Of a stretch of DNA of 36,708 nucleotides, positions 7,851-36,708 are shown piece by piece. The position numbers and the translations under genes were made by a program. The notes under the pieces were generated by a model that saw only the letters and a program-made list of their open reading frames with translations, was not told where the DNA came from and made no database searches. Numbering within the stretch: the first letter of the stretch is position 1; each line of letters begins with the position of its first letter. This stretch comes from Euzebyales bacterium (lineage in GTDB: Bacteria; Actinomycetota; Nitriliruptoria; Euzebyales; JAHELV01), in the NCBI GenBank assembly GCA_036374135.1, contig DASUUK010000081.1, positions 1 to 36,708 of the forward strand. Reading direction: 5' to 3'.

Positions 7851-7883
7851 ACGGCCCATGCCCGGCAACCGACAACCACCCCG
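7831..7883 (+). repeat. Dispersed palindromic intergenic repeat, copy A
   Basis: This 53-base segment aligns without gaps to 23919-23971 at about 41 of 53 positions. The ends are nearly identical (CACGAGGTGG at the left, GACAACCACC at the right) and the middle is divergent. The two ends are inverted repeats of each other (11 of 13 bp here, 13 of 13 in the other copy), so each copy can form a stem with a loop of about 25 bases. The pattern resembles a REP-like or miniature mobile element. Confidence 0.65.
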
Positions 7884-7961
7884 TCACGCGAACGACCACC
7901 CCGTCACGCGACAACCACCCCGTCACGCGAACGACCACCCCGGCAACCGACAACCACCACG
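7872..7961 (+). repeat. Short tandem array of alternating 19- and 20-base units
   Basis: Units ACAACCACCCCGTCACGCG (19) and AACGACCACCCCGTCACGCG (20) alternate from 7872 to 7929. A diverged 20-mer (7930-7949) and a partial 19-mer (7950-7961) follow. The first unit overlaps the right arm of the palindromic repeat, so the array seems to have grown out of that arm. No open frame uses it. Confidence 0.8.
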
Positions 7962-8040
7962 CCCCGCCACAACCAGCTGTCGGGTCGCGCCTCGTCCACA
8001 GGCACGCGGGCGCGTTCCGGCATGGTCGGCCGTACTCCCC

Positions 8041-19309: not shown

Positions 19310-20122
19310 GTGGGCTACGACGTCCTGGTCTGCATCAAGCGGGTACCCGCGCCGGGTGCTCGCATCAACCTGACCGACGACGAGCAGGAGATCGACACCA
19401 GGCACCTGGGCTTCACCATGAGCCCGCACGACGAGTGCGCCGTCGAAGAGGCGGTGCGCATCGTCGCTGAGCACGGCGGCAGCTCGACCGTGCTCTGCCT
19501 GGGTCCGCCGGAGGCCGACGAGCAGGTCCGCCAGGCGATATCGATGGGGATCGACCACGGCGTGCTCCTGGCCATCGACGAGATCGACTGGGACCCGCAG
19601 GCGACGGCCTCCGCGATCTCCGACACCATCGCGTCGCTGGCGTCGGAGGGTACGACCTACGACCTCGTGCTGTTCGGCAACGAGTCTCCCGACGCGGGCA
19701 ACTACCAGGTCGGCGTACGCGTGGCCCATCGCCTGGCACTACCAATCATCGCCGGCATCAAGGGCATCGACTTCACGGACGACGGCGTGGGTGAGGGCGA
19801 GCGGCAGCGAGCCGGCGGGCGGGGATCGATACGCGTGCGCCGCCAGGTGACCGACGGGTTCGAGCTGTACGAACTGCCGCTCCCGGCGGCGGTGGCGGTG
19901 AAGGAGGGTCTCAACCTACCGCGCTATCCCGCCATCAAGGGCCGCATGCGGGCGCGCAAGGCACAGGTCCGCGGCTTCGAGCCGCAGGCCGAGCCGGGCG
20001 GCCTGCGCAAGGTGCGGCTGCGCCAGCCGCGGGAGCAGAAGACCGAGACGGTCGTGCTGGGGCACGGACCGGAGGCCGCGACCGCGGTCGTGGACCTGTT
20101 CGAGGAACTGGGGCTGATGTGA
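19310..20122 (+). CDS. etfB: Electron transfer flavoprotein beta subunit
   Basis: A 270-residue EtfB-type protein. It opens with DVLVCIKRVPAPG, the conserved beginning of the family. It has SPHDECAVEEAVRI and the AMP/nucleotide-binding region around LVLFGNESPDAGNYQVG, and the conserved end LPRYPAIKGRMRARKA. It pairs with EtfA to carry electrons from the dehydrogenase encoded just upstream towards quinone through ETF:quinone oxidoreductase, which is not in the window. The GTG start has GAGGTGA 6 bases upstream. Residues about 160-173 (VGEGERQRAGGRGS) are an odd low-complexity insertion encoded by a DNA repeat also found in etfA. The last codons overlap the etfA start. Confidence 0.92.
   Translation: MGYDVLVCIKRVPAPGARINLTDDEQEIDTRHLGFTMSPHDECAVEEAVRIVAEHGGSSTVLCLGPPEADEQVRQAISMGIDHGVLLAIDEIDWDPQATASAISDTIASLASEGTTYDLVLFGNESPDAGNYQVGVRVAHRLALPIIAGIKGIDFTDDGVGEGERQRAGGRGSIRVRRQVTDGFELYELPLPAAVAVKEGLNLPRYPAIKGRMRARKAQVRGFEPQAEPGGLRKVRLRQPREQKTETVVLGHGPEAATAVVDLFEELGLM
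19786..19828 (+). repeat. GC-rich repeat inserted in frame in etfB
   Basis: The stretch GGGTGAGGGCGAGCG, then GCAGCGAGCC, then GGCGGGCGGGGATCG matches the units in etfA (20644-20737) except for one extra G and one C/G change. It is read here as Gly-Glu-Gly-Glu-Arg-Gln-Arg-Ala-Gly-Gly-Arg-Gly-Ser, a different frame from that used in etfA. Confidence 0.8.
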
Positions 20123-21210
20123 GCGCTGCACACGTCACAGGACCGGCACTCCTCGCGTTCGTCGAGCACGAGTCCGGTGTCGTCGACGAGACGGGTCTGG
20201 AGCTGGTGTCCGCCGGTCGCGCGATCGCCGAGGACCTCGGCGCCGTGCTGCACGCGATCGTGATCGGCCCCGGCGCCGAGACCGCGCTCGAGCGCCTGGG
20301 TGCGTACGGCGCCGCGCACGCGCACGTGGTCGCCCACCCCGACCTGGCGGCGTACGCGCCAGCCGCGTACGCAGAGAGCATCATCCAGCTGATGGGCACC
20401 CACGAGGCGGTGGGCGTGCTGGCATCGGGCACCGAGAAGGGCAACGAGGTGCTGGCGCACGTCGCCGCGCGCACCGATCTGCCGATGGCCGCCAACTGCA
20501 CCGAGGTGGCGGCGGCCGACGGGGCCCCGTGGGCGTTGACCCGACTGCGGTGGGGCGGCAGCCTGCTCGAGGACGCCGAGCTCGACGCGTCGACCAAGCT
20601 GGCCACGTTGGCGCCGCACGCGTTCCAGGCCGCCGAGGTCAACGGGGCGGGGATCGGCGGGGTGACGAGCGCAGCGAGCCGGGGGGCGGGGATCGGCGGG
20701 GTGAGGGCGAGCGCAGCGAGCCGGGGGGCGGGGATCGAGACGGTCGCCGCGACGGAGTTCCAGCCGGAGCTCGACGGTGCCAGCACCGCCGTCCATGTGG
20801 TCGACCACGAGCCCAGCGGGGGCGGCGTCTCGCTGGCGTCGGCCCCGGTCGTGATCTCCGGCGGCCGCGGTGTCGGCAGCGCGGAGGGCTTCGCGGTGCT
20901 CGAGGAGCTCGCGGGTCTGCTCGAAGGCGCGGTGGGGTGCTCGCGCGTCGCGACCAACAACGGCTGGCGCTCGCACAGCGACCAGGTCGGCCAGACCGGC
21001 ACCAAGATCGCCCCGCAGCTGTACGTCGCATGCGGGATTAGTGGCGCCACCCAGCACTGGGTCGGGTGCAAGGACTCGAAGAACATCCTGGCGATCAACA
21101 CCGACCAGGAGGCTCCGCTGGTGACCCGCGGCAACTACGCGGTGATCGGCAGCCTGCAGGAGGTGCTGCCGGCGATCGTCGACGAGGTCCGCCGCCGCAA
21201 GGGCGCCTGA
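20119..21210 (+). CDS. etfA: Electron transfer flavoprotein alpha subunit
   Basis: A 363-residue EtfA. The N-terminal domain starts ALLAFVEHESGVVDETGLEL. The C-terminal FAD-binding domain begins near PVVISGGRGVGSAEGF and has VGQTGTKIAPQLYVACGISG, KDSKNILAIN and the usual DEVRRRKGA-like end. Family members are usually about 320 residues. The excess is explained by residues about 176-207, a run of Gly/Ala/Ser/Arg units (GAGIGGVTSAASR, GAGIGGVRASAASR, GAGIE) placed between the two domains and encoded by a tandem DNA repeat. The GTG at 20119 overlaps the etfB stop as GTGA. It forms the ETF heterodimer with EtfB and is the probable acceptor for the upstream dehydrogenase. Confidence 0.93.
   Translation: MSAAHVTGPALLAFVEHESGVVDETGLELVSAGRAIAEDLGAVLHAIVIGPGAETALERLGAYGAAHAHVVAHPDLAAYAPAAYAESIIQLMGTHEAVGVLASGTEKGNEVLAHVAARTDLPMAANCTEVAAADGAPWALTRLRWGGSLLEDAELDASTKLATLAPHAFQAAEVNGAGIGGVTSAASRGAGIGGVRASAASRGAGIETVAATEFQPELDGASTAVHVVDHEPSGGGVSLASAPVVISGGRGVGSAEGFAVLEELAGLLEGAVGCSRVATNNGWRSHSDQVGQTGTKIAPQLYVACGISGATQHWVGCKDSKNILAINTDQEAPLVTRGNYAVIGSLQEVLPAIVDEVRRRKGA
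20644..20737 (+). repeat. Tandem in-frame repeat within etfA
   Basis: The core GGGGCGGGGATCG recurs at 20644, 20683 and 20725, a spacing of 39 and then 42 bases. Both spacings are multiples of three, so the frame is kept. Between the cores lie GGTGACGAGCGCAGCGAGCC and GTGAGGGCGAGCGCAGCGAG. Similar DNA sits in etfB. The C-rich complement and purine-rich strand could also favour slippage. Confidence 0.88.
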
Positions 21211-21226: not shown

Positions 21227-21328
21227 GGGGCGACCTGTCAACGCCGAGCGCGCAACATCACCCCACAAGGACCACAACCCCCACCACCGGGGCGACCTGT
21301 CAACGCCCAGCGCGGTTCAGATCACCCC
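21227..21328 (+). repeat. Intergenic direct repeat with internal inverted repeat
   Basis: GGGGCGACCTGTCAACGCC, one variable base, then AGCGCG occurs at 21227-21252 and 21289-21314 (25 of 26 identical). Each copy is followed by ATCACCCC (21257-21264 and 21321-21328), which can pair with the leading GGGGCGA allowing one G-T pair. The whole 378-base interval from 21211 to 21588 has no convincing gene; apart from this repeat and the promoter next to the downstream gene I see nothing in it. Confidence 0.75.
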
Positions 21329-35583: not shown

Positions 35584-36708
35584 TCACAGGACGACCGCGC
35601 CCACCTGTTGCAGCGTGTCAAGATCCGAGACGACCACGACGCCCGGGGTCACCGTCACCAGCCGGTCGCCGACCACCAGCGAGCGCACCGCACCACCGAT
35701 GTACGCCGGTCCGTCCGGCACGCTGACGGTGCCGCGTTCGCGCAGCGTCGCGTCACCAGCGACCTCGAGCACGAGCACGTCCACGTCGCCGTCGTCCCAG
35801 TGTTCGACCGGCAGTGCCACCAGATCGCGATCCGGCCAGGCGAGCAGCGCGCGGTGGTCGTACTCGACCGGGCTGGATGTGCGCGGTCCCGCCGTGAGCT
35901 GTGCGATCCGTGCCGGCGCTGACAGGTCACCGATGTCGAACAGCGACATCTGCAGACCCATGGTCCGGCCACGACGGTCGGCATCCTGGCCGACGCCGAG
36001 GAGGTGATGGTCGCCGACGGGGTGCAGGTAGGCCGAGTACCCGGCGATCTTGAGCTCGCCGAGCACACGCGGGGCGCGCCGGTCGGACAGGTCGAGCGTG
36101 TACAGGGGATCGACCTGTCGAAAGGTCACGACGAACCCGATCGGCCCGGCGTAGCGCACGGCGTAGATCTGCTCCCCACGGCCGAGGTCGCCGACACGGC
36201 CGACCTCCACGAGCCGGTCGCCGTCCCGGCGCAGGACGGTGACCGCGCTGGCCGCGCGTCGTCCGCGTGCGGCCGGTGTCGTCGTGGCGATCCTCAGGTC
36301 GTCGTCGTACTCCGACAGCGCCCACTGGTTGAGGACGGTGCCGTCGACTGACCCGCTGGCCACGTAGGCGGTACCACCGTCCGGTGCCAGCTCGAAGCGA
36401 TGGACCTCGGTGGTCACCTGCGGTGCGGGCGCACCGGACGGCTCGGAGCCGTCCGCCGATCGCGTGGGTCGGTCCATCGGCGCGTCGGGCGTGACCGGGT
36501 CGTCGGGCGTGACCGGGTCGTCAGGGGTGACCGGCGCGTCGGGCGTGACCGGGTCGTCGGACGGCGCCGCCGGACGCCGTGGCGGCACGGAGGTTCCCGA
36601 CGCGGCGTCGGGCTCGACCGGCACGGGCTCGACCGGCACGGGCTCGACCGGCACGGGCTCGACCGGCACGGGCTCGACCGGCACGGGCTCGACCGGCACG
36701 GGCTCGAC
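35584..36708 (-). CDS. Beta-propeller domain protein with Pro-rich repeat linker, 5' partial
   Basis: The frame runs out of the window at 36708, so the N-terminus, including any signal peptide, is missing. Visible in translation order: at least six PVEPV-type units, a linker, about four to five VTPDxP units, then a propeller domain of about 270 residues. That domain has VTTEVHRFELAPDGGTAYVA, VLNQWALSEYDDDLRIATTT, DPLYTLDLSDRRAPRVLGEL and HPVGDHHLLGVGQDAD. These match the secreted beta-propeller family (PF09826 type) of bacteria and archaea, whose role is unknown. The repeats separate this half from the missing N-terminal part, probably as a stiff extracellular spacer. The stop is at 35584. 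Confidence 0.82.
   Translation of the reverse strand, partial: VEPVPVEPVPVEPVPVEPVPVEPVPVEPVPVEPDAASGTSVPPRRPAAPSDDPVTPDAPVTPDDPVTPDDPVTPDAPMDRPTRSADGSEPSGAPAPQVTTEVHRFELAPDGGTAYVASGSVDGTVLNQWALSEYDDDLRIATTTPAARGRRAASAVTVLRRDGDRLVEVGRVGDLGRGEQIYAVRYAGPIGFVVTFRQVDPLYTLDLSDRRAPRVLGELKIAGYSAYLHPVGDHHLLGVGQDADRRGRTMGLQMSLFDIGDLSAPARIAQLTAGPRTSSPVEYDHRALLAWPDRDLVALPVEHWDDGDVDVLVLEVAGDATLRERGTVSVPDGPAYIGGAVRSLVVGDRLVTVTPGVVVVSDLDTLQQVGAVVL
36479..36559 (-). repeat. 18-base in-frame minisatellite (VTPDxP units)
   Basis: Four full units and one half unit of 18 bases run from 36479 to 36559, in two versions (GGCGCGTCGGGCGTGACC and GGGTCGTCGGGCGTGACC, one with AGGGG). Each encodes Val-Thr-Pro-Asp-Asp/Ala-Pro on the minus strand, so copy number changes keep the frame. 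Confidence 0.88.
36610..36708 (-). repeat. 15-base in-frame minisatellite (PVEPV units) running off the window
   Basis: Six exact units of GGGCTCGACCGGCAC (36610-36699) and nine bases of a seventh lie at the window end; the true number is unknown. It encodes Val-Pro-Val-Glu-Pro on the minus strand. Exact identity of all units points to recent or ongoing slippage. Confidence 0.92.

Follow-up and report, generated by a model that had tools for sequence, protein, structure and literature searches.

The window analysed here, a 36,708-nt stretch of contig DASUUK010000081.1, contains the neighbouring open reading frames etfB and etfA, which encode the beta and alpha subunits of an electron transfer flavoprotein (ETF), a family match that is secure, resting on solved structures. 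Both genes carry in-frame segments built from a near-identical DNA unit, read in two different frames, which raises the question of how one DNA sequence came to lie within two conserved proteins as two unrelated peptides. The answer that we consider probable is that the unit is a small dispersed DNA repeat, nearly restricted to one genus of Nitriliruptorales, that entered several dozen genes, or sites next to them, as DNA.

The repeat unit at the etfB/etfA locus

The in-frame occurrence of the unit in both genes, in two frames, had been reported in a preliminary description and was confirmed here, as were the coordinates of the etfA segment (20644-20737); the etfB segment starts at 19787, not 19786. 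The etfA segment, previously regarded as two units of 13 and 14 residues, was found to comprise a partial unit of 13 nt, a unit whose 5' end has decayed, and a complete unit. The features of the locus, all on the + strand, are as follows:

19310..20122, +: etfB, electron transfer flavoprotein beta subunit, 270 aa including a 14-residue insert
19787..19828, +: etfB insertion, 42 bp, equal to one unit; encodes VGEGERQRAGGRGS; a gap in relatives
19789-19827, +: core of the etfB unit, variant v1, 39 nt (plus 3 nt, 42 bp)
19796..19813, +: quasi-palindromic core GGCGAGC-GGCA-GCGAGCC of the etfB unit (its positions 8-25); putative GNNA mini-hairpin
20119..21210, +: etfA, electron transfer flavoprotein alpha subunit, 363 aa including about 28-29 inserted residues
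20644..20656, +: partial unit at the 5' edge of the etfA array, the 3' 13 nt GGGGCGGGGATCG, from the repeat search
20657..20694, +: first etfA unit, variant v2 core, 5' end decayed, 5 mismatches
20681..20707, +: predicted canonical G3N1-7 quadruplex motif GGGGGGCGGGGATCGGCGGGGTGAGGG (motif match) at the junction of the two etfA units
20695..20698, +: 4-nt linker GGCG between the etfA units
20699..20736, +: second etfA unit, variant v2 core, 0 mismatches

In a repeat search of the window, the stretches 19788-19828, 20655-20695 and 20697-20737 aligned as one 41-nt family, with the 13-nt GGGGCGGGGATCG recurring at 20644, 20683 and 20725, at spacings of 39 and 42 nt. The two genes carry different length variants of the unit, with a 39-nt core containing GCGNCAGC in etfB (complete sequence GGGTGAGGGCGAGCGGCAGCGAGCCGGCGGGCGGGGATC) and a 38-nt core containing GCGNAGC in etfA. 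Translation of the etfA array, in a frame different from that of EtfB, yields GAGIGGVTSAASR-GAGIGGVRASAASR-GAGI, that is, GVRASAASRGAGI-type units.

Alignment of the genome of the window (G000) to three sister species of the same genus (G001-G003; genus g1, Nitriliruptorales, in which all genomes are draft assemblies) showed that etfB of G000 is longer by 42 nt than its counterparts in G002 and G003 and by 39 nt than that in G001, and that etfA is longer by 84-87 nt than in all three. Neither insert is present in ten more distant EtfB and EtfA proteins, the gap in EtfB measuring 13-15 residues. In G001 and G002, a unit is placed at the etfB/etfA junction instead of inside the genes, and its 5' end gives EtfA an ATG and the N-terminal MGEGERQRAGGRG (start assigned from the frame). 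At the other end of etfB, a full unit of G001 (L045, 129-166) ends at the start codon, and at the same place in G002 and G003 there is only the short core GCGAGCG(A/G)AGCGAG. Four different sites in the etf operon have been hit among the four species.

The structure models place both inserts between strands and assign pLDDT values below 50 to EtfB residues 159-169 and EtfA residues 177-203, which comprise most of each insert. In both subunits, these predictions support the earlier view that the insertions are tolerated at surface loops.

Several other repeats were observed in the window. A second, unrelated dispersed repeat, GGGGCGACCTGTCAACGCC, lies directly after the etfA stop codon (21227-21245 and 21289-21307); it occupies 18 places in the genome, mostly as pairs about 60-73 nt apart, forms an array of four directly after a stop codon at L016, has one copy within the DnaE2 locus L023, and includes a possible GTGGGGA/TCCCCAC inverted repeat. 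At 36483-36560 and 36609-36708, we observed a perfect 15-nt tandem repeat (CGGGCTCGACCGGCA, 6.7 copies) that extends to the window end, beside an 18-nt array, and at 7861-7975, a short array of tandem units 19-20 and 39 nt long (ACCACCCCGTCACGCGAACG).

Anatomy of the unit and origin of tandem arrays

The unit is G-rich and about 42 bp long, with a constant core of 37-39 nt followed by 3-5 nt, and conforms to the consensus GGG[TCA]G[AC]GGGCGAGCG[N](C)AGCGAGCCGG[N]GGG[CT]GGGGA[TC]C + 3-5 variable bases. Across 65 arrays of the 39-nt variant, it is near-invariant except at positions 4 (T/C/A), 6 (A/C), 16 (any), 28 (any), 32 (C/T) and 38 (T/C); a single base, located in the GCGN(C)AGC core, distinguishes the 38-nt variant from it. 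Array periods are 42 (44 cases), 43 (6), 39 (4) and 40 nt (1). The arrays classed as lying in frame within genes have periods of 42 or 39 only, as expected if the frame is selected, and periods of 43 and 40 occur only in other contexts.

The linkers between units are locus-specific: the head of a linker matches the 3' flank of its array, and its tail matches the 5' flank (each reached in 0 of 5000 permutations), some of the 5' flanks being what is left of an earlier unit. Because the linkers derive from both flanks, the arrays arose in situ, by local tandem duplication of a unit and a few bases of its flanks. Units agree at the six variable positions in 91% of comparisons within arrays and in 51% between arrays. 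In G003, the first unit in CoxL blends into host sequence that is itself core-like (GCGTGAGCGCGGCGAGC), a single case that suggests the use of microhomology.

Copy number and distribution

The repeat is far from unique to the etf genes. BLAST with the etfA segment produced 42 matches in G000 (best E 4e-29 outside the locus), and the two unit patterns matched 18 and 42 times, compared with 0 for the reversed control. Counted over the retrieved stretches, G000 carries at least 40 arrays with 64 units, numbers that are lower bounds given that several contigs end inside or near arrays, so that some arrays are probably longer than seen and the true copy numbers higher. Contigs with such ends include C25, C1, C43 and C106 (L011, L012, L014 and L020). 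The notion of a dispersed repeat put forward in the preliminary description thus withstood a search for further copies, of which there are dozens, as well as the comparison with relatives, where the peptide segments are absent altogether rather than encoded by other codons.

The pattern of the 39-nt variant matched 42 times in G000, 29 times in G001, 25 times in G002 and 10 times in G003, and 38-nt variants are also present in the three congeners. Outside g1, the repeat was detected in one genome of family f3 (G015), with 16 matches of the 38-nt variant, including a two-unit array in a copper ATPase that constitutes an 84-bp insertion missing from homologues in other genomes. The other approximately 60 genomes of the class contained no unit, apart from isolated one-mismatch matches, and a sample of 296 genomes spread over the phylum Actinomycetota yielded matches only in G000, G003 and G015. 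Among GTDB contigs, the strict 39-nt form was found only in the metagenome-assembled genomes 0813_bin27, which fits G001, and Ww637 (Nitriliruptorales), which fits G003. Many insertion sites are common to several species, so part of this distribution is vertical.

A phage origin was rejected, as the 39-nt variant had no match in the viral collection; 41 stretches in that collection match the short core of the 38-nt variant, which may be due to chance. No Rfam family matched the unit up to E 1, and a literature search for the literal unit sequence returned no description of it. A short, G-rich unit with arrays in or near which several contigs terminate might be suspected of being an assembly artefact or the outcome of low-complexity convergence or chance, but the control patterns had no matches in the g1 genomes, the same insertion sites appear in independently assembled species, and frames are preserved through the inserts, leaving this explanation with a negligible probability.

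Insertions in host genes and orientation

To characterize filled and empty sites, we used the joined flanks of ten insertion sites as queries, followed by alignment of the orthologous sites. Compared with the empty orthologous sites, the insertions measure 42 bp in HrpA, 42 bp in Lhr, 84 bp in an acyl-CoA synthetase and 126 bp in DnaE2, with further sizes of 123 bp at a third site in Lhr, 48 bp in FtsK and 51 bp in aconitase. The lengths of the insertions inside genes (42, 48, 51, 84 and 126 bp) are multiples of three, and the reading frames remain intact through them. These pairs of filled and empty sites suggest that the repeat has moved. The conserved proteins with copies inside include EtfA, EtfB, CarB, FtsK, aconitase, DnaE2 and Lhr; the target genes have no evident pathway in common. 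The gene for the Lhr-like helicase of G000 (L021) contains three separate arrays, one of which has a counterpart in G001 (L197), where the corresponding site holds a unit-like insert in an advanced state of decay.

Using the codon usage of the flanks, we could assign a strand to 69 arrays, of which 63 are in the sense and 6 in the antisense orientation relative to the gene (p 4e-13); this sample consists partly of orthologous sites, which are not independent but cannot account for a bias this large. Intragenic, in-frame arrays make up 26 of the 69, and the remaining ones are located at gene junctions or near gene ends, or have one flank unresolved. An effect of replication orientation was rejected because single contigs bear copies on both strands. 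Translation alone predicts the opposite bias, given that the sense strand of the unit has one closed frame (TGA) and two open ones and the antisense strand is open in all three.

Such a bias could be caused directly by RNA-mediated or transcription-coupled insertion, involving R-loops or reverse-transcribed copies. This route, which would fit the 63:6 ratio despite the more permissive antisense strand as well as the presence of copies on both strands of single contigs, seems to us quite unlikely, considering that the reverse transcriptase domain PF00078 was not found in the carriers G001 and G003 and that the bias is accounted for just as well if antisense copies are purged. Reverse transcriptase was rejected as the mobilizer for not being common to all carriers. 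Two neighbouring reverse transcriptase domains are encoded in G000 (G000:C26:9533-11636; L208, L211), with no link to the repeat seen.

Conservation of nucleic acid rather than peptide

If the peptides were what is maintained, conservation should depend on the frame in which the unit is read. At the 33 constant positions, we found mismatch frequencies of 2.6% (frame a), 2.0% (frame b) and 2.4% (the other copies, mostly at junctions), and the free positions vary in all these contexts. Equal conservation in all contexts implies a constraint on the nucleic acid, not the peptide, and strengthens the earlier contention that the repeat spreads as DNA. Some observations would suit a useful peptide module (GEGERQRAGGRGS) duplicated into proteins, namely, that the two freest positions of frame a are third codon positions and that the same peptide occurs in EtfB, HrpA, CarB and others. 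However, those positions also vary where they fall second in the codon (frame b) and in copies outside genes, and EtfA uses another frame altogether; selection at the peptide level was therefore rejected by the comparison of frames, and the peptide module is a highly improbable explanation.

Comparison of 11 orthologous sites revealed differences at 3.6% of the constant positions, 36% of the six variable positions and 16.5% of flanking positions; for randomly paired copies, the values were 4.1% for constant and 49% for variable positions. The similarity between orthologous and randomly paired copies fits two readings, one in which every copy is strongly constrained and another in which copies replace each other. 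The slow change at the constant positions could equally well reflect a cis-acting function.

Under this alternative, the unit would be a functional nucleic-acid element under selection, acting as a structure of the mRNA or of the non-template strand, for example, in translational coupling or pausing, and its intragenic presence would be a by-product. It draws on the roughly fivefold slower change of constant positions relative to flanks at orthologous sites, the strong sense orientation, the many junction copies that end with GGGGA a few bases before a start codon, the copies that supply the ATG itself (EtfA of G001 and G002), and the placement of the variable positions within loops, or between them, in a conceivable fold. 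Nevertheless, we regard a cis-acting element as unlikely, because more than one third of the strand-assigned arrays lie in frame inside genes, the target genes lack an evident common pathway, the sister species differ in the sites occupied in etfB and etfA, and Rfam contains no match.

A possible non-Watson-Crick fold

An ordinary Watson-Crick hairpin was rejected as the structure of the unit, as DNA folding performed no better than for shuffled sequences (z +0.5 to +2.0). Once tandem G.A pairs flanking a GNA or GNNA loop are permitted, however, the core GGC-GA-GC-GN(C)A-GC-GA-GCC becomes symmetric, to a length that one per cent of composition shuffles reach (a post hoc comparison). GNA and GNNA loops closed by G-C pairs form extraordinarily stable DNA mini-hairpins (PMC4686876), and the existence of two stable loop types would explain the one-base length difference between the unit variants.

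The junction between tandem units, GGG-Y-GGGG-AYCNNN-GGG-HGM-GGG, is a canonical quadruplex motif. The G3N1-7 motif is present in 30 of 42 multi-unit arrays, compared with 1 of 37 single units, always on the sense strand and never on the antisense strand. The variable positions fall in the loops of the two predicted modules, except that position 28 lies between them, and the linkers likewise occupy predicted loops or the space separating the modules. These sequence features are compatible with a fold combining a mini-hairpin and a G-quadruplex. We tentatively suggest, as a possibility of rather low probability, a composite device on the coding strand or mRNA, in which a GNA/GNNA mini-hairpin with sheared G.A pairs and a junction quadruplex would be selected for copying or for transcription-coupled insertion and tandem expansion. 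If true, this would define a class of mobile repeats by non-Watson-Crick structure, a class that ordinary hairpin searches miss.

How the repeat may spread

In the reading that we consider probable, that of a dispersed DNA repeat, the unit would be a selfish or near-neutral element dispersing as DNA copies. Insertions would survive if they keep the frame and if the site is a flexible loop, a terminus or a gene junction. Antisense copies would be purged or never made, owing either to an obstruction of transcription by a G-rich template strand or to a coupling between transcription and insertion, and the constant positions would be kept for copying or for nucleic-acid structure, not for the peptide.

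With regard to the enzymes and sequence marks of known mobile elements, the Y1 transposase (PF01797) had 0 matches in G000, with 5 of 14 control genomes positive, and RAYT was accordingly rejected as the mobilizer. The repeat search of the window detected no terminal inverted repeats joining the unit ends. Target-site duplication is suggested at the single loci HrpA (CGGAGGG), L033, L023 and L157, but the observed mean was reached in 56 of 500 permutations and the best offset lies within the permuted range; target-site duplication was rejected, the linkers being more readily accounted for by units duplicated in place along with flank sequence.

Relation to known repeats

Rickettsia palindromic elements (RPEs), to which the unit had been likened, are 105-146 bp in length and have long stem-loops and 12-bp terminal inverted repeats (Ogata 2000; PMC2229807). 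The likeness holds for behaviour, in that both are dispersed repeats found in frame in conserved protein genes as well as between genes, with a tolerated effect on the protein. It does not extend to membership: the 42-bp unit, about one third of the size, lacks a Watson-Crick palindrome and terminal inverted repeats, is often tandem, and is almost always in the sense orientation. The 42-bp repeat works like an RPE but does not have the size and inverted repeats that define that class.

REP and REPIN sequences are extragenic Watson-Crick palindromes, REPINs being doublets, and are linked to RAYT (PMC3116915, where the small dispersed repeats considered below are also named). Like REPs (20-40 nt), the unit is short and strongly conserved in sequence and has a hairpin-like core. 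It differs from REPs and REPINs in forming direct tandems of period 42, in being often intragenic, and in the lack of a Y1 transposase in G000. Unlike MITEs, it has no inverted termini that we could see, and target-site duplication does not exceed permutations. Mycobacterial interspersed repetitive units (MIRUs) are reportedly mostly about 46-101 bp long and intergenic. Compared by description, the unit shares with MIRUs the occurrence in Actinomycetota and the tandem units at operon junctions overlapping stop or start codons, as in the etfB/etfA junction copies of G001 and G002, but at least one third of its arrays are intragenic.

The GGGNATC repeats of Xanthomonas and Nostoc have 7-nt units, form quadruplexes, and are under-represented in coding regions (PMC4692102). 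Here, too, there are dispersed G-rich tandems between co-oriented open reading frames with potential quadruplexes, and the 42-nt unit ends in GGGGATC; the differences are the 42-nt length, the frequent coding location and the preference for the sense strand. Cyanobacterial small dispersed repeats (SDRs) are very small, non-autonomous and apparently mobile, without an evident enzyme. By description, the unit is similar in its very small size and the lack of an evident enzyme, but the SDR hosts differ.

Implications

The repeat described here adds to the rare cases of a dispersed DNA repeat found repeatedly inside conserved proteins. The sister species provide clean before-and-after pairs and, with them, a natural experiment on where a protein will admit a loop of 14 extra residues, in the form of either of two unrelated peptides, and another on how tandem arrays start from a single copy. 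Moreover, the combination of frame-independent conservation with strand bias poses the testable question of what is conserved in such an element, and by what means a repeat this short, for which no enzyme is evident, is able to spread.
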